The position numbers and the translations under genes were made by a program. The notes below the pieces were generated by a model, which was given only the letters and a program-made list of their open reading frames with translations, was not told the DNA's origin and searched no databases. From a virus, in IMG/VR virus record IMGVR_UViG_3300042451_000897, positions 1 through 35,810 of that record: a stretch of DNA of 35,810 bases. One strand, written 5' to 3'. Numbering within the stretch: the first letter of the stretch is position 1; the number at the start of each line of letters is the position of its first letter. Of the stretch, positions 12,899 through 30,110 are shown piece by piece.

Positions 12899-12972
12899 CT
12901 CGGTGTGGTGAAATGGTATCATGCGTGGTTTGGGACCATGCGGCGAAAGTTCGATTCTTTCCACCGAGACCA
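12899..12972 (+). tRNA. tRNA-Pro (anticodon TGG)
   Basis: The acceptor stem CTCGGTG/CACCGAG is perfect, the anticodon loop is TTTGGGA (anticodon TGG) and CCA is encoded. C1-G72 is usual for tRNA-Pro. It lies upstream of the array's sigma70 promoter and directly after a terminator, so its expression differs from the other tRNAs. Confidence 0.95.
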
Positions 12973-13007
12973 GAATAATGTGTTGTAAAACAACAACACA
13001 AAAATGC

Positions 13008-13036
13008 TTGACAGTTTGGCGAAATATCTTTATAAT
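13008..13036 (+). promoter_or_regulatory. Consensus sigma70 promoter of the tRNA array
   Basis: TTGACA (13008-13013) and TATAAT (13031-13036) are both perfect, with a 17-bp spacer. The expected start site is near 13043. It opens a 150-nt structured leader ahead of tRNA-Glu. Confidence 0.9.
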
Positions 13037-13057
13037 CGTTTCTGTTGAGTGATTGAA

Positions 13058-13070
13058 GTTCTTTAAAAAG
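13058..13070 (+). promoter_or_regulatory. boxA-like antitermination site
   Basis: GTTCTTTAAAAAG lies about 15 nt downstream of the expected start site. It closely resembles the boxA of bacterial rRNA leaders (core CTTTAA), where NusB/S10 bind to prevent Rho termination of untranslated RNA. Its place between a consensus promoter and a tRNA operon fits that role. Confidence 0.6.
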
Positions 13071-13081
13071 TGTGAATCAAA

Positions 13082-13112
13082 ACAGGTGTGAGCGACCTGT
13101 CTCTGAAAAGAG
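13082..13112 (+). other. Leader hairpins of the tRNA operon
   Basis: ACAGGT (13082-13087) pairs with ACCTGT (13095-13100), then CTCT-GAAA-AGAG forms a GNRA-capped hairpin (13101-13112). A looser GATGC/GCATC stem follows. These may be processing or antitermination elements like those near boxA in rRNA leaders. The rest of 13113-13193 shows no gene. Confidence 0.5.
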
Positions 13113-13193
13113 TTGAGCAAGGGTTTGATGCAGTAATGACTTCGGCATCATGTAATAGTCTGTTCCTTGTTAGTTTGCGAATTTTAGTTTTAT

Positions 13194-13269
13194 GCACCGT
13201 TCGTCTATCTGGTTAGGACAACGCCCTTTCAAGGCGTAAAGACGGGTTCGAATCCCGTACGGTGTACCA
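13194..13269 (+). tRNA. tRNA-Glu (anticodon TTC)
   Basis: The anticodon loop is CTTTCAA between the stem ACGCC/GGCGT. The acceptor GCACCGT/ACGGTGT has a G-U at 1:72, and CCA is encoded. First tRNA behind the consensus promoter. Confidence 0.95.
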
Positions 13270-13292
13270 AACTTTTAAAAAGGAGAGTCCAC

Positions 13293-13331
13293 ATGGACAG
13301 TGACAAGAGTAGTAAGATGAAGGGGCTATAG
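13293..13331 (+). CDS. Possible 12-codon frame running into tRNA-Lys
   Basis: AGGAGAG stands just before ATG 13293. The frame (MDSDKSSKMKGL) stops with TAG inside the acceptor/D region of tRNA-Lys. A ribosome here would block tRNA folding in the precursor. It may be a gene remnant or chance. Confidence 0.25.
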   Translation: MDSDKSSKMKGL

Positions 13332-13397
13332 TCAAACGGTTAAGACAGCGGACTTTTAATCCGTCAGGTCAGGGTTCGAATCCCTGTGGCCCCACCA
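13322..13397 (+). tRNA. tRNA-Lys (anticodon TTT)
   Basis: Acceptor GGGGCTA/TGGCCCC (one wobble-like end pair), anticodon loop CTTTTAA, T-arm CAGGGTTCGAATCCCTG, encoded CCA. The CCA also takes part in the long inverted repeat that follows. Confidence 0.95.
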
Positions 13398-13478
13398 TAT
13401 AAAAACACATTCAAACACATGATGACGCCCGGGGTTATGGAATGTTTTACGACACTCCAAGAATGTGTTTCTATATGG
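13395..13478 (+). ncRNA. Long hairpin between tRNA-Lys and tRNA-Gln
   Basis: Bases 13395-13412 pair with 13461-13478 in an 18-bp helix with one mismatch (core AAACACATTC/GAATGTGTTT). Inside, TGGAATGT...ACACTCCA forms a second stem with one mismatch. The structure encloses 48 nt, has no reading frame and starts in the CCA of tRNA-Lys. It could be a processing element or a small RNA. Confidence 0.55.
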
Positions 13479-13483
13479 TTTGT

Positions 13484-13557
13484 TGGGATATAGTGTAATG
13501 GCAGCACCGCAGACTTTGACTCTGTTAGTCTAGGTTCAAATCCTAGTATCCCTGCCA
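13484..13557 (+). tRNA. tRNA-Gln (anticodon TTG)
   Basis: Anticodon loop CTTTGAC, discriminator G73 (a glutamine identity base) and encoded CCA. The acceptor TGGGATA/TATCCCT leaves U1 facing U72, where U1-A72 is usual. GlnRS tolerates a weak first pair, so it is probably functional. Confidence 0.93.
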
Positions 13558-13566
13558 AAATATTAT

Positions 13567-13644
13567 GGCACTTTAGCATAGCTGGCCTAATGCGCTGCCC
13601 TGTCACGGCAGAGATCACGGGTTCGAATCCCGTAAGTGTCGCCA
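13567..13644 (+). tRNA. tRNA-Asp (anticodon GTC)
   Basis: Anticodon loop CTGTCAC, acceptor GGCACTT/AAGTGTC with one G-U, discriminator G73 and encoded CCA, all as expected for aspartate. Confidence 0.95.
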
Positions 13645-13653
13645 AAGTTTTAT

Positions 13654-13728
13654 TGCTCGGTAGCACAGCGGTAGTGCAGTTGACTGTTAATCAATTTGTC
13701 GTTGGTTCGATCCCAACCCGAGCAGCCA
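13654..13728 (+). tRNA. tRNA-Asn (anticodon GTT)
   Basis: Acceptor TGCTCGG/CCGAGCA is perfect, anticodon loop CTGTTAA, discriminator G73, encoded CCA. GTT anticodons usually need queuosine modification in bacteria. Confidence 0.95.
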
Positions 13729-14055
13729 AGTTCCGGTTTCTACTTACCTGAAAGTAGCGGGTGTCACACGTTAGTTAGACCGGTTGGCTAGGCTACCGTT
13801 AGCGCAATGCAGAGCAGAGCACCTAGATATCCGGACACAACCGGTAGCACGATACGCTGAAACAAATGTGGACAGGGTAAAAACTCAGCATAGGGGCGAT
13901 GACTGGAAATCACGTAGCCTAAGCAATATTAGTTTTGCAGTTTGTAAGCCATGGGCTTGATCATGCCTGAGTAACTATGTCTATAAACGGTAAAGAAAGT
14001 CCTGCAGGCTACTCCGTTGAAACATAGCAAATAGTGCAGACTGCAAAACTAATAT
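13729..14055 (+). ncRNA. Highly structured non-coding RNA in the tRNA array (about 327 nt)
   Basis: No gene fits here, but paired segments are dense. 5' domain: CTACTT/AAGTAG (13740/13752), ACCGGTTG/CAACCGGT (13779/13838) enclosing CTAGG/CCTAG and GCTA/TAGC, then GCTGA/TCAGC (13856/13885) and TAGG/CCTA (13891/13918). 3' domain: a perfect 16-bp helix, 13926-13941 with 14040-14055, enclosing AAGCC/GGCTT, CTATGT/ACATAG and AACGG/CCGTT nested. The last helix abuts the first base of tRNA-Tyr, so RNase P would release it. Large ornate RNAs such as GOLLD and ROOL also sit in phage tRNA arrays; this is shorter and I see no proven homology. It does not match RNase P RNA, a group I intron or a known riboswitch by eye. 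Confidence 0.7.
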
Positions 14056-14140
14056 GGGTTGGAAGCATCAATGGTGATGCAGTGGACTGTAAATCCGCCG
14101 TCTTCGGGCACGACTGGTTCGATCCCAGTACAACCCACCA
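14056..14140 (+). tRNA. tRNA-Tyr (anticodon GTA)
   Basis: Class II tRNA with a long variable arm (CGTCTTCGGGCACG) and anticodon loop CTGTAAA. Acceptor GGGTTGG/ACAACCC has a mismatch at the 7:66 pair. Encoded CCA. Confidence 0.94.
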
Positions 14141-14146
14141 TATTTT

Positions 14147-14221
14147 CGGTCTTTAGTAAAATGGATATTACGGATGGCTACGGACCATCAAGTGGGAGTT
14201 CGATTCTCTCAGGACCGGCCA
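14147..14221 (+). tRNA. tRNA-Arg (anticodon ACG)
   Basis: Anticodon loop CTACGGA between GATGG/CCATC; acceptor CGGTCTT/AGGACCG; discriminator G; encoded CCA. A34 must be deaminated to inosine by host TadA to read CGT, CGC and CGA. Confidence 0.94.
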
Positions 14222-14222
14222 A

Positions 14223-14297
14223 GGGGGATTGGTATAGTTGGGAACACATCAGATTTGCATTCTGAAGTAATCGGTTCGAATCCGATATCCTCCACCA
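14223..14297 (+). tRNA. tRNA-Ala (anticodon TGC)
   Basis: Anticodon loop TTTGCAT. The acceptor GGGGGAT/ATCCTCC carries G3-U70, the alanine identity pair, with A73 and encoded CCA. Confidence 0.95.
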
Positions 14298-14304
14298 TAG
14301 TTTT

Positions 14305-14378
14305 GCCCGTTTAGTTAAATGGTATAACAGTTGATTTGTAATCATCTATTGGCAGTTCGATTCTGTCAACGGGCACCA
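14305..14378 (+). tRNA. tRNA-Thr (anticodon TGT)
   Basis: Acceptor GCCCGTT/AACGGGC is perfect and the anticodon loop is TTTGTAA. The anticodon stem GTTGA/TCATC has one T-T mismatch at its second pair. Encoded CCA. Confidence 0.92.
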
Positions 14379-14396
14379 ATATTATAGTTAAACATT

Positions 14397-15023
14397 ATGA
14401 TTAAATTTAATGTAACTCCTATTTTTCCTAGACCGTTCGCTGAATACACGGTTGATGAAAATATGGATAATTTTTTTGAAGTCGTTAAAAATTTGAAGTA
14501 TATTTCTCACAAGAATACATACTCAAATATTGAAACGACAGAAGATAAACACATATTAGATTCGTTGCCTGAAGTAAAAGAAATCTTTAAAAAGTATTTC
14601 TATCATTTCAAAAATGAGTTTTTGCATTTTAATGATATAGAGTTTGACATTACCACTTCATGGGCAACTAAAACACAAAAAGGTGGTTTTAGCGCATCAC
14701 ACGCACATTACAATAGTTTTTATTCTGGCGTGTATTATTTTGAATCGATGCCCGAAGAGGGTGCTGATGTTATTTTTGAGCGGCCTGAAGAAGTAAGTTC
14801 ATTTCTTATTCAGCCCAATGAAATAGTAAATGATGTGACAACGAATTTTTGTTTTTATAAACCTGTTAAAAATACTTTGATATTTTTTCCAAGTTTTCTA
14901 AAACATAGAGTAGCGTTACATGAAATTGATGACATTCGGTATTCGTTGGCATTCAATGTTATTCCTGTTGGAAAATTTGGGTTTCAAGATTCAACTTTGA
15001 ATGTGCGACTTAATAAGAATTAA
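14397..15023 (+). CDS. 2OG-Fe(II) oxygenase-like protein (208 aa)
   Basis: The sequence has the layout of the 2OG-FeII_Oxy_5 type common in T4-like marine phages: SASHAHYNSFYSGVYYFES (first iron-binding part), then a long strand region, and FFPSFLKHRVALHE...RYSLAFNVIP (distal histidine and the arginine that binds 2-oxoglutarate). Substrates of the phage members are unknown; protein or nucleic-acid hydroxylation is possible. It is AT-rich and sits alone between tRNA-Thr and the initiator-like tRNA, as if inserted into the array. No strong ribosome binding site is seen. Confidence 0.78.
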   Translation: MIKFNVTPIFPRPFAEYTVDENMDNFFEVVKNLKYISHKNTYSNIETTEDKHILDSLPEVKEIFKKYFYHFKNEFLHFNDIEFDITTSWATKTQKGGFSASHAHYNSFYSGVYYFESMPEEGADVIFERPEEVSSFLIQPNEIVNDVTTNFCFYKPVKNTLIFFPSFLKHRVALHEIDDIRYSLAFNVIPVGKFGFQDSTLNVRLNKN

Positions 15024-15029
15024 ATTTAT

Positions 15030-15106
15030 AGCGGATTAGGGAAGTGGTCGTTCCCGCCGGTCTCATAAGCCGGAGGTCGCAGGTTCGAATCCTGCATCCG
15101 CAACCA
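15030..15106 (+). tRNA. Initiator-like tRNA-Met (anticodon CAT)
   Basis: The anticodon loop is CTCATAA. Position 1:72 is an A-A mismatch, the unpaired end that marks bacterial initiator tRNAs (E. coli has C-A), and the 3' end CCGCAACCA matches the E. coli initiator. The anticodon stem has G29-C41 and G30-C40 but a T-G at 31:39 instead of the third G-C. CCA is encoded. Confidence 0.85.
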
Positions 15107-15128
15107 GTTTTTTATTTACGGGTGAAAC

Positions 15129-15596
15129 ATGAAAAAAGAAATTGACATACATGAAGTGGCTGCATTTCTTGACACATGCGGTCCCGATACGAAAGTTTAC
15201 ATTGGTGCAGACAGTGAACGTTTTCAAATAAATGGTGAATGGTTTGCTGATTATATTCTAGCGGTTGTTGTTCATATCGATGGTCGGCACGGTTGCAAGA
15301 TTTTTGGTTGTGTTCAGCGTGAACGTGATTACGAACAAAAGAAAAATCGCCCACGTATGCGTTTGATGACAGAAGTTTATAAAGTTTCGGAATTGTATTT
15401 AAAACTTTATGATGCAATACCACATGATATTGAAGTGCATTTAGATATTAATCCAAGTGAGATGCACGGCAGTTCATGTGTAGTAAACGAAGCAATTGGT
15501 TATATCAAAGGTACATGTAATGTTGTACCGCTTGTGAAACCAAAAGCTTTTGCAGCAAGTTATGCGGCAGATAGATTTAAAAGTATTGCTGCTTAA
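15129..15596 (+). CDS. DUF458-type (RNase H-like fold) protein (155 aa)
   Basis: Characteristic blocks are KVYIGADSERF near residue 22, HLDINPSEMHGSSCVVNEA with IGYIKGT, and PKAFAASYAADRFK at the end. These match the YkuK/DUF458 family, predicted to have an RNase H-like fold; the conserved acidic residues (GADSE, LDINP, AADR) could be catalytic. Its activity is not established. A GGGTG precedes the ATG. It lies between the initiator-like tRNA and tRNA-Trp, so a role in RNA metabolism is tempting but unproven. Confidence 0.75.
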   Translation: MKKEIDIHEVAAFLDTCGPDTKVYIGADSERFQINGEWFADYILAVVVHIDGRHGCKIFGCVQRERDYEQKKNRPRMRLMTEVYKVSELYLKLYDAIPHDIEVHLDINPSEMHGSSCVVNEAIGYIKGTCNVVPLVKPKAFAASYAADRFKSIAA

Positions 15597-15600
15597 AAAT

Positions 15601-15674
15601 CTCGGTGTGATGTAATGGTAGCATCGCAGTCTCCAAAACTGTTCGTTGCGGTTCAAGTCCGTACACCGAGGCCA
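15601..15674 (+). tRNA. tRNA-Trp (anticodon CCA)
   Basis: Acceptor CTCGGTG/CACCGAG, anticodon loop CTCCAAA, discriminator G73 and encoded CCA. Its acceptor matches that of the tRNA-Pro at 12899. Confidence 0.95.
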
Positions 15675-15676
15675 GT

Positions 15677-15752
15677 GGTGTCTATAGTGTAGTGGTCTGC
15701 ACGAATGTCTGTGGAACATTCAGTATGAGTTCAATCCTCATTAGACACCCCA
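15677..15752 (+). tRNA. tRNA-His (anticodon GTG)
   Basis: Anticodon loop CTGTGGA. The extra G-1 is encoded and pairs with C73, the histidine identity element, above the acceptor GTGTCTA/TAGACAC. CCA is encoded. Confidence 0.95.
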
Positions 15753-15754
15753 AT

Positions 15755-15830
15755 GGTGCTTTAGCTGATGTGGTCATAGCGGCGGTTTGAAGAGCCGTTG
15801 AAGTTGGTTCGATTCCAACAGGCACCACCA
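15755..15830 (+). tRNA. tRNA-Phe (anticodon GAA)
   Basis: Acceptor GGTGCTT/AGGCACC, anticodon stem GCGGT/GCCGT around loop TTGAAGA, A73 and encoded CCA. A register shift giving TGA (Ser) would break the anticodon stem. Confidence 0.92.
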
Positions 15831-15831
15831 T

Positions 15832-15905
15832 TGTCCTGTAGTTAAATGGTATAACTGTCGATTGATAATCGACCATTACAAGTTCAATTCTTGTCGGGAC
15901 AACCA
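15832..15905 (+). tRNA. tRNA-Ile (anticodon GAT)
   Basis: Anticodon loop TTGATAA in a perfect GTCGA/TCGAC stem; acceptor TGTCCTG/CGGGACA; encoded CCA. It reads ATT and ATC. Confidence 0.94.
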
Positions 15906-15906
15906 A

Positions 15907-15981
15907 GGTAATGTAGCATAACGGTAGTGCGCCTCCTTCATACGGAGTCAAGTGTAAGTTCGATTCTTACCATTACCACCA
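15907..15981 (+). tRNA. tRNA with CAT anticodon: elongator Met or Ile2
   Basis: Acceptor GGTAATG/CATTACC is perfect and the loop is TTCATAC. A paired 1:72 rules out an initiator. The sequence alone does not separate elongator Met from Ile2, which reads ATA after lysidine modification. Confidence 0.9.
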
Positions 15982-15983
15982 AT

Positions 15984-16060
15984 GCCCCTTTGACGGAACT
16001 GGTATACGTGTATGTCTTAGGAACATAATTTTGAGGGTTCGAATCCCTTGGGGGGCACCA
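15984..16060 (+). tRNA. tRNA-Leu (anticodon TAG) without a long variable arm
   Basis: Anticodon loop CTTAGGA. The D-arm (ACG-GAACTGGTATA-CGT) is that of a leucine tRNA, but only 5 nt (ATTTT) separate the anticodon and T stems. Bacterial tRNA-Leu normally has a long variable arm. Acceptor GCCCCTT/GGGGGGC has two T-G pairs; CCA is encoded. Confidence 0.88.
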
Positions 16061-16068
16061 AATTAAAC

Positions 16069-16143
16069 GCATCGTTAGTTCAGCGGTAGAATCCCTGCCT
16101 TACAAGCAGGTTGTCGTTGGTTCGAATCCAGCACGATGCACCA
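16069..16143 (+). tRNA. tRNA-Val (anticodon TAC)
   Basis: Acceptor GCATCGT/ACGATGC and anticodon stem CCTGC/GCAGG are perfect, loop CTTACAA, encoded CCA. Confidence 0.95.
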
Positions 16144-16149
16144 AACAAC

Positions 16150-16227
16150 GGTAAGGTGGCTGAGTGGTCCAAAGCAACAGTCTGCAAAACTGTAAAACCA
16201 TCGGTTCAAATCCGATCCTTACCTCCA
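16150..16227 (+). tRNA. tRNA-Cys (anticodon GCA)
   Basis: Acceptor GGTAAGG/CCTTACC, anticodon loop CTGCAAA, and discriminator U73, the main cysteine identity base. CCA is encoded. Confidence 0.95.
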
Positions 16228-16231
16228 GAAT

Positions 16232-16321
16232 GGAAACGTGGCCGAGTGGTTTAAGGCTCTAGTCTTGAAAACTAGCGATTCAGAAATGGATCCGTGAGTT
16301 CGAATCTCACCGTTTCCGCCA
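16232..16321 (+). tRNA. tRNA-Ser (anticodon TGA)
   Basis: Class II, 90 nt, with a long variable arm. Anticodon stem CTAGT/ACTAG around CTTGAAA, acceptor GGAAACG/CGTTTCC, G73 and encoded CCA. Confidence 0.95.
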
Positions 16322-16326
16322 AACAT

Positions 16327-16413
16327 GGAGAGTTGGCAGAGTGGTAATGCACCGGATTGCTAATCCGCCGTTTCGAAAGAGGCGCACAGGTTCGAATCCT
16401 GTACTCTCCGCCA
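16327..16413 (+). tRNA. tRNA-Ser (anticodon GCT)
   Basis: Class II, 87 nt. The loop TTGCTAA carries anticodon GCT; the variable arm (GCCGTTTCGAAAGAGGC) forms a stem; G73 and CCA are present. Together with the TGA tRNA it covers both serine boxes. Confidence 0.95.
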
Positions 16414-16438
16414 TTTTTGGTAATGAAAATCGAAAATA

Positions 16439-16467
16439 TTGACAAAAATCACTTTTTCAGTCATAAT
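16439..16467 (+). promoter_or_regulatory. Sigma70-type promoter
   Basis: TTGACA at 16439-16444 and CATAAT at 16462-16467, 17-bp spacer. The next ATG is only 11 nt downstream of the -10, leaving almost no leader. Confidence 0.75.
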
Positions 16468-16477
16468 CACTACTATC

Positions 16478-16639
16478 ATGAATACGAAAAAATCAAAAAT
16501 TTCTTCAAAACCACGAAATTTTGTCGCTAAGGATCTCTTTTCGGCAAAATATCGCATGAAAGTTGAGAAATCACCCGCAGTATTTTATTCACGTGCAGTC
16601 GAAAAACAAAATTTTAGGAAAAATTATGACGGATTCTAG
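16478..16639 (+). CDS. Small basic phage protein (53 aa)
   Basis: It is very lysine/arginine-rich, with RNFVAKDLFSAKYRMKVEKS in the middle, a pattern seen in small basic T4-like phage proteins of unknown function. The ATG at 16478 is nearly at the predicted transcription start, so the message would be leaderless or almost so. Nucleic-acid binding is likely from charge. Confidence 0.6.
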   Translation: MNTKKSKISSKPRNFVAKDLFSAKYRMKVEKSPAVFYSRAVEKQNFRKNYDGF

Positions 16640-17042
16640 TAAAAACGAAGAAAATGATGATATTACTGAAAATTATGACGGTTTTTACTTTATTCCAACA
16701 GAGACTAAAGATGAATCAAGCTACAAATTAGCATTTTTCACGTTTAAAGATGAAATGGCAAATGCAAAACCGATAGAAACGTCTGAAATGGGCGATACAT
16801 TTCATATTGCATTCTTCAAACCCGATGAAAATGACCTTCCTGTGTTCGATGATTCGTTTGAAGCTATTTTGACTGACCCAATCGTGTATATTAACAATTT
16901 AGTTGGCACTGGTATGTCTGGCTGCATACTCAGAAAGACTGAAAAATCGGAAGTTTGGTTTCAAGAGTATTTGGATTATATAACTGGCGGCGAATTTGAA
17001 ACAAAAGTTCGTGAAATTGCAAAAAATATAGCGGAGAACTAA
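16626..17042 (+). CDS. Hypothetical phage protein (138 aa)
   Basis: Unrecognised. AGGA stands upstream of ATG 16626, inside the end of the previous gene; an earlier in-frame ATG at 16563 would overlap it more deeply. The sequence is acidic, with a beta-rich middle (YKLAFFTFKDE, DTFHIAFFKPDE) and a glycine-rich turn (LVGTGMSGCILRK). It is first in a three-gene run. Confidence 0.6.
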   Translation: MTDSSKNEENDDITENYDGFYFIPTETKDESSYKLAFFTFKDEMANAKPIETSEMGDTFHIAFFKPDENDLPVFDDSFEAILTDPIVYINNLVGTGMSGCILRKTEKSEVWFQEYLDYITGGEFETKVREIAKNIAEN

Positions 17043-17043
17043 T

Positions 17044-17340
17044 ATGAATGTATTTTCTGGTGATAGTGATGATGCAAAAGCAGGTCGTGATTGGCTAAAA
17101 AGTTTGTTAGAAGAAAACACGGTAGAAGTTGTGTTTACTAAAAAAGATGGCACTGAACGTGTGATGAATTGTACATTGAAAGAAGATGTTCTGCCAACAG
17201 TACAAAAAGAAATTGAAGAAGATTCATTCACAAAGACAAAAGCAAAAGATGCACTTGCTGTTTGGGATGTTGACGCAAGTGGTTGGCGTTCTTTTCGTTG
17301 GGACTCAATCAAGTCTGTTAATTTTTCATTGGGAGCATAA
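17044..17340 (+). CDS. WYL_2/SH3-barrel protein (98 aa)
   Basis: The blocks VEVVFTKKDGTERVMNCTL and LAVWDVDASGWRSFRWDSIK are typical of the SH3-like barrel family (DUF2693/WYL_2) widespread in T4-like phages and probably ligand- or nucleic-acid-binding. The N-terminal helix (AGRDWLKSLLEEN) is also usual. CGGAG precedes the start and it is cotranscribed with both neighbours. Confidence 0.75.
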   Translation: MNVFSGDSDDAKAGRDWLKSLLEENTVEVVFTKKDGTERVMNCTLKEDVLPTVQKEIEEDSFTKTKAKDALAVWDVDASGWRSFRWDSIKSVNFSLGA

Positions 17341-17342
17341 TT

Positions 17343-17633
17343 ATGCCTAAGTATATCGTAGAACAGTTGTCTTGTTTTAGAAATGTTCATGTTGTTGAAG
17401 CAGAAACCGAACAAGAAGCAATTGCAATCTCAGAACAAGCCGATGATAACTGGCAAGAATGGCTTGGTTGTCTGAAAGTTGACGTAAATCATTTTTCCGA
17501 TGAACGTATTGCATATTTTAAAGAAAAAGATTATTTTTGGAATGGCGTATCATACAAAGATGCTGATGGCTATATCGGATATATACATCCGAGCGGTGAA
17601 AAAGTAGAACGTAAAGAAATTAAGATTAAATGA
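17343..17633 (+). CDS. Hypothetical phage protein (96 aa)
   Basis: Unrecognised. GGGAG lies just upstream. The N-terminus MPKYIVEQLSCFRNVHVVEA followed by TEQEAIAISEQ suggests a small ferredoxin-like alpha/beta fold with a regulatory flavour. It ends 6 nt before tRNA-Gly, so one transcript probably carries both. Confidence 0.6.
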   Translation: MPKYIVEQLSCFRNVHVVEAETEQEAIAISEQADDNWQEWLGCLKVDVNHFSDERIAYFKEKDYFWNGVSYKDADGYIGYIHPSGEKVERKEIKIK

Positions 17634-17639
17634 AGCAAT

Positions 17640-17713
17640 GCGGGATTAGTTTAATGGTAAAACGTGAGCCTTCCAAGCTCCTGTTATCAGTTCGATTCTG
17701 ATATCCCGCTCCA
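17640..17713 (+). tRNA. tRNA-Gly (anticodon TCC)
   Basis: Acceptor GCGGGAT/ATCCCGC, loop CTTCCAA, discriminator U73 as expected for glycine, and encoded CCA. It stands apart from the main array, between two protein genes, and completes the set of 20 amino acids. Confidence 0.95.
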
Positions 17714-17723
17714 AAGGACAATT

Positions 17724-17927
17724 ATGGAACCATCAAAGCACTGGACGCTAGAAGTACAACAACATGAAGATGGAGATTACTTCATTGAATTTCCTGATGA
17801 TGTTCTTGCTGAAGCTAATTGGAAAGAAGGCGATGTGATTGAATGGATTGATAATAAAGATGGTTCTTGGACATTGCGTAAAAAATTAGATGATAATCAT
17901 GAAAATACTGATGAATCTAAAGAGTAA
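17724..17927 (+). CDS. AbrB/MazE-like small protein (67 aa)
   Basis: The stretch YFIEFPDDVLAEANWKEGDV followed by IEWIDNKDGSWTLRKK has the swapped-hairpin pattern of AbrB/MazE/SpoVT DNA-binding proteins (a strand, 'ANWKEGD', then strands). The acidic tail (DDNHENTDESKE) is unusual for the family. AAGGACAATT precedes the ATG. It may regulate, but there is no partner toxin. Confidence 0.6.
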   Translation: MEPSKHWTLEVQQHEDGDYFIEFPDDVLAEANWKEGDVIEWIDNKDGSWTLRKKLDDNHENTDESKE

Positions 17928-17969: not shown

Positions 17970-18404
17970 ATGAGTTTGAAAGGCACAAAAACCGCAGAGT
18001 GTTTGAAAGAAGCTTTTGCGGGTGAATCTATGGCAAATCGTCGCTATCTGTATTTTGCAAATCAGTGCGATATTTCAGGTGAGAATGATTTGGCTGCATT
18101 GTTCCGTTCTACTGCTGAAGGTGAAACAGGACATGCACACGGTCACATGGAATATTTAATTGAAGGCGGTGCTGGCGAACCCGGTACAGACTTGCCGGCG
18201 AAAACTGCAAAAGAAATGCTAGAAGCTGCTGTTCATGGCGAAACGCATGAATATTCAGATATGTATCCTGGCATGGCGAAAATTGCACGTGATGAAGGTT
18301 TTGATGAAGTTGCTGATTGGTTTGAAACTTTGGCGAAAGCTGAACGTTCTCACGCTAATCGTTATCAAAAAGCGTTGGATAAACATATTGCAGAAAATTC
18401 TTAA
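17970..18404 (+). CDS. Rubrerythrin (diiron domain only, 144 aa)
   Basis: Strong match to rubrerythrin: [20 protein letters not shown] at the start, then [53 protein letters not shown] and [19 protein letters not shown]. The four helices carry the diiron ligands in the E...ExxH...E...ExxH pattern. Rubrerythrins reduce hydrogen peroxide in the cytoplasm. The C-terminal rubredoxin domain of classical members is absent, so an external electron donor is needed. GGAG precedes the start; pqqA follows 10 nt after the stop, and a terminator closes the pair. Confidence 0.92.
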
Positions 18405-18414
18405 GGAGAAAACT

Positions 18415-18489
18415 ATGAACTGGACTACACCTGCGGCACAAGATATGCGTTTTGGTTTTGAAATCACAATGTACATCGCTAATCGTTAA
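18415..18489 (+). CDS. pqqA: PQQ precursor peptide PqqA (24 aa)
   Basis: The 24-residue product starts MNWTTPAAQDM and contains GFEITMYIANR, the signature of PqqA. Glu16 and Tyr20, spaced E-x3-Y, are the residues the radical SAM enzyme PqqE cross-links to build pyrroloquinoline quinone, after PqqD presents the peptide. Length fits the usual 22-24 residues. GGAG lies 6 nt before the ATG and a strong terminator begins 12 nt after the stop, so this is a real gene. No pqqB-E is in the window; they would come from the host. It is too short for routine gene callers and overlaps no other real gene. Confidence 0.9.
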   Translation: MNWTTPAAQDMRFGFEITMYIANR

Positions 18490-18500
18490 TCAGTAAAATA

Positions 18501-18524
18501 AAAGCGGCTTAGGCCGCTTTTTTT
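18501..18524 (+). terminator. Strong terminator after pqqA
   Basis: AAAGCGGC (18501-18508) and GCCGCTTT (18513-18520) pair perfectly around TTAG, with T residues to 18524. The A-rich side (AAAATAAAA) gives it a T-run on the other strand too, so it probably also ends the convergent minus-strand unit. Confidence 0.92.
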
Positions 18525-29081: not shown

Positions 29082-29612
29082 ATGCTATCATTCAAACAAT
29101 ACGAACAATTAGACGAGGGTAATCCTCTAGCCAGACTGCACAAACATGCCGAAGAAGGCAGACACTATGCGGTTATGTCTTCACAACGACCGCATGATGA
29201 AGTGTCTCCAGAAGATAATAAGAAGCGCCATGAAGAGTTAAAAAAGAAATTAACTGCACAGGGTTATGCTCATAAAGAAGTAGAAGGTCATTGGGAAGGC
29301 GGCAAAGAAAAGTCTATATTGGTACATGCTAAAGGAAAAGGAGATGAACACGGCAAACAGTTGCTCCACGATATTAAAAAACATGGAGAACATTATAATC
29401 AAGACTCAATCTTACATCATGATGGAAAAACAGCGACCCTACATGGAACAAACAAAACAGGTTTCCCAGGACACGGTAAGACAGAGACAGTAGGTAAAAT
29501 GGCGTATAATAAAGCACATGCGCCATTTCAAACAGAAATGAAACCGAAGTCAGATAAACCGTTGAAACCTGGAAGAACAGCGAAAAGTTCTGCAAGATTC
29601 ACAACGGAGTAA
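29082..29612 (+). CDS. DUF3293-like phage protein (176 aa)
   Basis: Recognisable order: MLSFKQYEQLDEG start (common to T4-like proteins), GRHYAVMSSQRPHDE, RHEELKKKLTAQGYAHKEVE, GHWEGGKEKSILVHAKGKG and YNQDSILHHDGKTATLHGTN. The central part has the DUF3293 rhythm; the role is unknown. Rich in His and Lys. GGAGG precedes the ATG. Confidence 0.65.
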   Translation: MLSFKQYEQLDEGNPLARLHKHAEEGRHYAVMSSQRPHDEVSPEDNKKRHEELKKKLTAQGYAHKEVEGHWEGGKEKSILVHAKGKGDEHGKQLLHDIKKHGEHYNQDSILHHDGKTATLHGTNKTGFPGHGKTETVGKMAYNKAHAPFQTEMKPKSDKPLKPGRTAKSSARFTTE

Positions 29613-29614
29613 TT

Positions 29615-29785
29615 ATGGAAATTAGTGAAAAAGAATACGATGAAAAATTGGATGAATATCTGAGAGAACAAGGACCAAATCTAGGTGAAACATTTTTTGG
29701 CGCATGGGGTTGGTATGCAACAAAACGAAATGAGTTTAATGCGATATTGAAAGAGGAAGGAATTGTTGTAATCCCTTCAAAGTGA
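29615..29785 (+). CDS. Small acidic protein next to tmRNA (56 aa)
   Basis: It starts 2 nt after the previous stop (CGGAG upstream). It is acidic and helical (EISEKEYDEKLDEYLREQG), with ETFFGAWGWYATKRNEF and a basic end. Its last codons probably overlap the 5' end of the tmRNA acceptor piece, so translation and tmRNA processing may interfere. Confidence 0.6.
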   Translation: MEISEKEYDEKLDEYLREQGPNLGETFFGAWGWYATKRNEFNAILKEEGIVVIPSK

Positions 29786-30110
29786 AGGCATTCTGGACGA
29801 GGGTTCGATTCCCTCCATCTCCACCAGAAACATTCTTGTCCATGGAGTTGGGAACGGACAGATAAACCGTGAGAGTGTTTCTCATGGGGATGACCTGGTT
29901 TCGACAGGGTGAGATAGCAGAGAAGGCAACACGAAAGGCGACGGACGTAATCCGAGCAAATAATATAACCGCAAATGACGAGTTATACGCTCTAGCAGCC
30001 TAAATTGCTAGATGAGGTTTCGCCGACTGTCCTTATTATCCAATCAGTCGGCATCAATTATGGGTTTGGTGGCATCACCCGAACAAGAGTTCAAAAAACC
30101 ACCACTTACA
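29765..30110 (+). ncRNA. ssrA: Circularly permuted (two-piece) tmRNA
   Basis: tmRNA rescues stalled ribosomes and tags their peptides for proteolysis. Order here is acceptor piece, intervening segment, coding piece. The acceptor piece ends TTCTGGACG, T-arm GAGGGTTCGATTCCCTC, CATCTCC-A-CCA at 29826. The coding piece starts GGGGATG at 29886; this stem pairs perfectly with CATCTCC and includes G3-U70, the alanine identity pair. The TGGTTTCGAC D-loop follows. The tag frame GCA...GCC TAA (29971-30003) encodes ANDELYALAA. Stems follow: CTAGCA/TGCTAG around the stop, GCCGACTG/CAGTCGGC and GGTGG/CCACC. The 59-nt intervening segment closes a helix (29827-29836 with 29872-29881, then TGTCC/GGACA). Ends are approximate; the acceptor 5' end is the least certain. 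Confidence 0.9.
29971..30003 (+). CDS. tmRNA proteolysis tag frame
   Basis: Ten codons encode ANDELYALAA, followed by TAA. With the non-coded alanine delivered by the charged tmRNA, the tag would be 11 residues. It differs from the E. coli tag (ANDENYALAA) only at the fifth residue. The LAA end is the determinant recognised by ClpXP. The codon context AACC-GCAAATGACG matches the resume site pattern. Confidence 0.88.
   Translation, partial: ANDELYALAA

Follow-up and report, generated by a model that had tools for sequence, protein, structure and literature searches.

Phages are known to carry single-component auxiliary metabolic genes, such as pmoC in large freshwater phages and psbA in cyanophages. 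These genes supply one host-derived component at a limiting step, a feature that the gene described here would share. The component is an enzyme subunit in both of those cases, whereas here it is PqqA, a ribosomal peptide that is consumed one for one in the synthesis of the cofactor pyrroloquinoline quinone (PQQ). PqqA has been described in a phage before: a 2020 study reported it, along with a viral methanol dehydrogenase, in one Lake Baikal phage population, VP_266 (Coutinho et al. 2020, PMC7678222). On the bacterial side, named Methylophilaceae possess 3-12 copies of pqqA but only one set of the remaining pqq genes (PMC4109929).

The locus considered here lies in a 35.8 kb linear virus record, a fragment of a T4-like phage, termed below the window (the whole stretch of DNA analysed). 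Like VP_266, which is predicted to infect Methylophilaceae, it combines a T4-like phage with a gene for the PQQ precursor. VP_266, however, was reported in a single population and with its methanol dehydrogenase, whereas the pqqA described here is devoid of PQQ enzyme genes, is widespread, and in many relatives is preceded by what appears to be a host operator. The phage genes also resemble the chromosomal pqqA copies of Methylophilaceae: they stand alone, apart from pqqBCDE, they encode identical peptides in many phages, and they follow the same upstream palindrome. They differ from these copies by a shorter leader and by a palindrome usually located nearer to the -10-like hexamer. New are the scale of the phenomenon, the stand-alone state of the gene, the retention of the reactive residues in a search not biased towards them, the occurrence of the gene in nine isolated methylophages, and the operator common to phages and hosts.

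The pqqA gene of the window

The peptide encoded by the window (Table 1) matches, over the full profile, both the PqqA equivalog model TIGR02107 (39.1 bits, E 4.7e-10, for a curated cut-off of 20 bits) and Pfam PF08042 (38.2 bits, E 1.3e-9, cut-off 21.1 bits). Its residues E16-x3-Y20 correspond to the Glu-x3-Tyr pair whose cross-linking leads to PQQ. Membership of the PqqA family was defined as a full-length match above the curated cut-off together with Glu-x3-Tyr, and the window peptide possesses both. The initial annotation had recognized PqqA in this short frame and proposed a comparison with the bacterial family; the significant matches to both curated models confirm the identification at the level of sequence. 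Among named Burkholderiales PqqA, the best match reaches 88%, and no PqqA identical to the window peptide is found in the host sets compared.

The gene is followed by a terminator-like stem-loop. Such sites are found within 80 nt of phage pqqA in 91 of 202 cases, versus 23 of 1010 random stretches. The T4 late promoter TATAAATA occurs three times across the window, as expected by chance, and is absent near pqqA.

Table 1. Features of the window around and beyond pqqA.
Feature	Position	Strand	Remarks
Cluster of 21 tRNA genes	12899-17713	+	ARAGORN; upstream of the rubrerythrin-pqqA unit
Candidate weak pqqA-type operator ATCATGAAAATACTGAT	17896..17912		Score 11.9, best of the whole window; within the terminal part of the preceding ORF, 74 nt ahead of the start of the rubrerythrin gene
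Rubrerythrin-family gene	17970..18404	+	PF02915, 90 bits; immediately upstream of pqqA
Shine-Dalgarno sequence of pqqA, AAGGAG	18403..18408	+	6 nt before the ATG; overlaps the TAA of the rubrerythrin gene
pqqA, product MNWTTPAAQDMRFGFEITMYIANR	18415..18489	+	24 codons, ATG 18415, TAA 18489; matches TIGR02107 and PF08042
Terminator-like stem-loop AAAAGCGGCTTAGGCCGCTTTT, then T-run	18500..18521	+	Downstream of pqqA
S-adenosylmethionine (S-AdoMet) lyase family gene	29082-29612	+	Same phage as pqqA
Permuted (two-piece) betaproteobacterial tmRNA	29713-30100	+	RF01850, 164 bits; predicted tag ANDELYALAA

The window also encodes T4-type gp32, gp59, a head maturation protease, and exonucleases. An auxiliary metabolic gene is expected in a viral genome among viral neighbours, and this is the setting of pqqA in the window as well as in the nine isolates. 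Within this 35.8 kb linear fragment, no further pqq gene is seen. In the window, rubrerythrin and pqqA would form one unit with pqqA in second place, and the pair is also found by tblastn in L021, a 172 kb contig syntenic with the window over this region. L021 carries neither pqqE nor a PQQ alcohol dehydrogenase. The gene preceding pqqA is swapped among close relatives: it is rubrerythrin in the window and L021, is missing in L012, and is replaced in L027 by a small gene resembling rubredoxin (at 2674, below the Pfam cut-off). In some related phages, pqqA lies near the same tRNA cluster in a different arrangement.

Stand-alone pqqA in phages and in methylophage isolates

A scan of IMG/VR reveals PqqA relatives in at least 591 viral stretches. 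When the cross-linked Glu and Tyr were masked in the search, both residues were found in all 119 readable matches, each 23-25 residues long and each preceded by a Shine-Dalgarno-like sequence. The pN/pS of phage pqqA is 0.21 over 165 distinct DNA sequences; this value is approximate, since part of the core is imposed by the patterns used for searching and synonymous sites approach saturation. This recurrence, together with the pN/pS, excludes chance as the source of the window gene. A Methylobacterium-type PqqA, used as a query, retrieved no additional phages.

The phage genes stand alone. None of pqqB, C, D, and E was detected by tblastn in 204 phage loci (1.78 Mb), and 31 large or complete phage records display no pqqE above the cut-off and no match to the model of PQQ-dependent alcohol dehydrogenases. 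The pqqE-like matches in three large phage contigs reach at most 25 bits, for a cut-off of 381, and were not counted.

Isolated phages were surveyed in 50,697 phage records scanned for PqqA-encoding places. Nine isolated phages of Methylophilales/Methylophilaceae encode PqqA: Melnitz and three close kin, P19250A, Venkman, MEP301, MEP401, and MEP402. The same records include one uncultured podovirus genome encoding PqqA and two contigs labelled Acinetobacter phage, which are considered below. In the freshwater methylophage P19250A, the unannotated gene is located at KX815270.1 28085-28153, on the minus strand. This phage was said to have none of the reported auxiliary genes (PMC7678222), contrary to what its sequence encodes. 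MEP431-434, HIM624-A, and other named methylophages are not among the matches and may be outside the collection; presence of pqqA in all methylophages is not claimed.

None of the examined phage copies is annotated as pqqA: the gene either has no feature or is covered by a hypothetical protein predicted on the opposite strand. PQQ goes unmentioned in the papers on MEP301 and MEP401/402, and the Melnitz paper names it solely as a medium supplement. The medium used for the host H5P1 includes PQQ at 1 nM (PMC9004378). In cultured isolates, too, annotation has missed a metabolic gene that is very common in methylotroph phages. The guess of the initial annotation that the gene is widespread and its suggestion of a short-ORF search of other phages are answered by the IMG/VR stretches and the nine isolates; its remark that gene callers miss pqqA proves right in the methylophage isolates examined; and the isolation of pqqA from other pqq genes, noted in the window, extends to the 204 loci for pqqB, C, D, and E and to the 31 records for pqqE.

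Host pqqA copies and their upstream palindrome

As a proxy for Methylophilaceae, one family of genomes was used, which was checked by hexulose phosphate synthase of the RuMP cycle. This enzyme is found in 41 of 41 host-proxy genomes, 40 of them above the cut-off, as expected of Methylophilaceae. All 100 host-proxy genomes possess pqqA, 96 of them in two or more copies (range 1-12, median 4).

These host genes have in common an upstream palindrome, CTMATGAWWWTCATKAG. In 14 host genomes, its strict 15-base form, TMATGAWWWTCATKA, occurs 29 times, and 27 of these sites lie just upstream of pqqA; as a built-in control, none of 32 more degenerate palindrome sites in the same genomes does so. Allowing up to two mismatches, the 17-base form precedes 36 of 49 host pqqA genes, at a distance of 108-164 nt from the start codon. 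Host loci with the palindrome include L368-L416, from 14 Methylophilaceae-like genomes. It is also present upstream of pqqA in 24 of 80 named Burkholderiales-type loci. The palindrome, almost exclusive to the upstream regions of scattered pqqA copies, is a candidate pqqA-specific operator in Methylophilaceae; a published pqqA operator was not found in the open-access literature. Its core may resemble a Fur box, a likeness that is not claimed here. Membership of the host pqqA regulon is defined here by CTMATGAWWWTCATKAG located ~65-165 nt ahead of the transcription unit that contains pqqA.

Phage upstream regions, made non-redundant, were scored with a matrix derived from host sites alone, with upstream regions of other genes from the same contigs as controls. 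A score of at least 10 is reached by 64 of 148 phage pqqA upstreams (43%) versus 11 of 796 controls (1.4%; Fisher 4.5e-46), mostly 80-120 nt before the pqqA start. The TATAAT-like hexamer most commonly starts 61 bases after the start of the box in hosts, and 38-39 bases after it, less often 61, in phages. This shift of about two helical turns may reflect two activator positions. In the window, the best-scoring site has an equivalent in L012, which lacks the rubrerythrin gene, 74 nt before pqqA; an operator role of the window site is suggestive only.

Readings of the phage gene

We consider it likely that phage PqqA is a genuine precursor, supplied as substrate to the host pathway so as to keep or raise PQQ and, with it, PQQ-dependent dehydrogenases. 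Once expressed in the infected cell, the peptide would be processed by host PqqD, PqqE, PqqB, and PqqC, the phage bringing the substrate alone and one peptide being spent per PQQ molecule. The activity of PQQ-dependent dehydrogenases, mainly those of methanol and alcohol, would be sustained while host gene expression shuts down, to the benefit of the phage. In many relatives, pqqA would form a small cassette whose promoter carries the palindrome of the scattered Methylophilaceae copies, and through this element the phage gene would join the host regulon, probably by activation rather than repression. Hosts multiply pqqA without the rest of the pathway and tie the copies to one element; phages, for their part, bring this peptide by itself, in many cases behind that element too. 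Most simply, PQQ synthesis would be limited by the dose of PqqA, to which the phage would contribute an extra copy of the gene. Substrate supply had been proposed in the initial annotation, and the multi-copy pqqA of Methylophilaceae and the shared host operator strengthen that part; the PQQ rise it foresaw may follow. According to work cited in PMC9851590, overexpression of PQQ genes in Methylovorus increased PQQ only modestly, so PqqA may not always be limiting. It also counts against the operator part of this reading that about half of the phage pqqA genes are devoid of a recognizable operator, and that the match in the window is weak and located in coding sequence.

A broader version, which we regard as evenly poised, holds that phages of methylotrophic and related betaproteobacteria have repeatedly acquired an operator-promoter-pqqA cassette, often with a terminator, that is plugged into the host pqqA circuit, the phage-dosed substrate setting PQQ and methanol oxidation during infection. 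If this is true, a single peptide of 24 residues would give viruses a general, overlooked means of steering a cofactor pathway. The gene would also link phages to the methanol oxidation rate of abundant aquatic methylotrophs. Culturable pairs (Venkman and Melnitz on H5P1, MEP401/402 on FZCC0133) make such substrate-only steering directly testable.

The palindrome common to hosts and phages could also act by titration: replicating phage DNA would draw a repressor off the host pqqA promoters and thereby raise PqqA more than the phage peptide does. This is improbable, as the peptide is under purifying selection with its reactive residues kept, many phage copies are without a recognizable operator, and the spacing from the -10-like hexamer would rather fit an activator.

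The phage peptide might instead serve something other than PQQ, as a decoy, signal, or inhibitor occupying PqqD/PqqE, or as the target of another peptide modification; that other pqq genes are found in none of the phages searched would fit such a role. Yet 49 of 204 phage PqqA are identical to a host PqqA, and two 23-residue host peptides match the commonest phage peptides letter for letter. This identity makes a decoy of altered function unlikely and, together with the invariant Glu and Tyr, indicates that the phage peptides should be ordinary substrates, likely of PqqD/PqqE. A role apart from PQQ is accordingly very unlikely in our estimation.

A gene of host origin could, in principle, be a passenger devoid of function, as the host-like sequences and the variable surrounding gene order might suggest. 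The genes flanking phage pqqA fall into hundreds of clusters, from which it follows that pqqA entered many phage lineages; among those with an annotation, the most frequent are exonuclease, endolysin, single-strand binding protein, the translation repressor regA, clamp loader, Hsp20, and the major head protein. Strong conservation, clean ribosome sites, and the presence of pqqA in compact genomes of unrelated phage lineages leave the passenger reading with very little probability. Misassigned bacterial DNA, as in two contigs labelled Acinetobacter phage that hold bacterial pqq operons, has next to no likelihood as a general explanation, being refuted by the complete genomes of isolated phages that carry pqqA and by neighbouring phage head, lysis, and replication genes with no pqqBCDE nearby. 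Those two contigs, records of Acinetobacter phage MD-2021a (CAKLQF020000010.1 and CAKLQH020000055.1), harbor an ordinary, full bacterial pqqABCDE, look like mislabelled host contigs, and were set aside as bacterial DNA.

Supply of a precursor by the phage would leave the host to provide the pathway. The permuted betaproteobacterial tmRNA of the window and its PqqA, whose 'EITMYIANR' type is frequent among Burkholderiales, indicate that the host is probably a betaproteobacterium. BLAST matches of the tmRNA are weak, partial, and scattered over Burkholderiales, so this route to a host name was rejected and none is given. The suggestion that the host is a PQQ user such as a methylotroph stands in part: the isolated carriers of pqqA infect methylotrophs, but the window host looks only betaproteobacterial and is not certainly a methylotroph. 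Tangentially, host PqqE needs S-adenosylmethionine, and the S-AdoMet lyase of the window phage and its PqqA would pull in opposite ways. A tmRNA-like sequence is also observed near pqqA in relatives.
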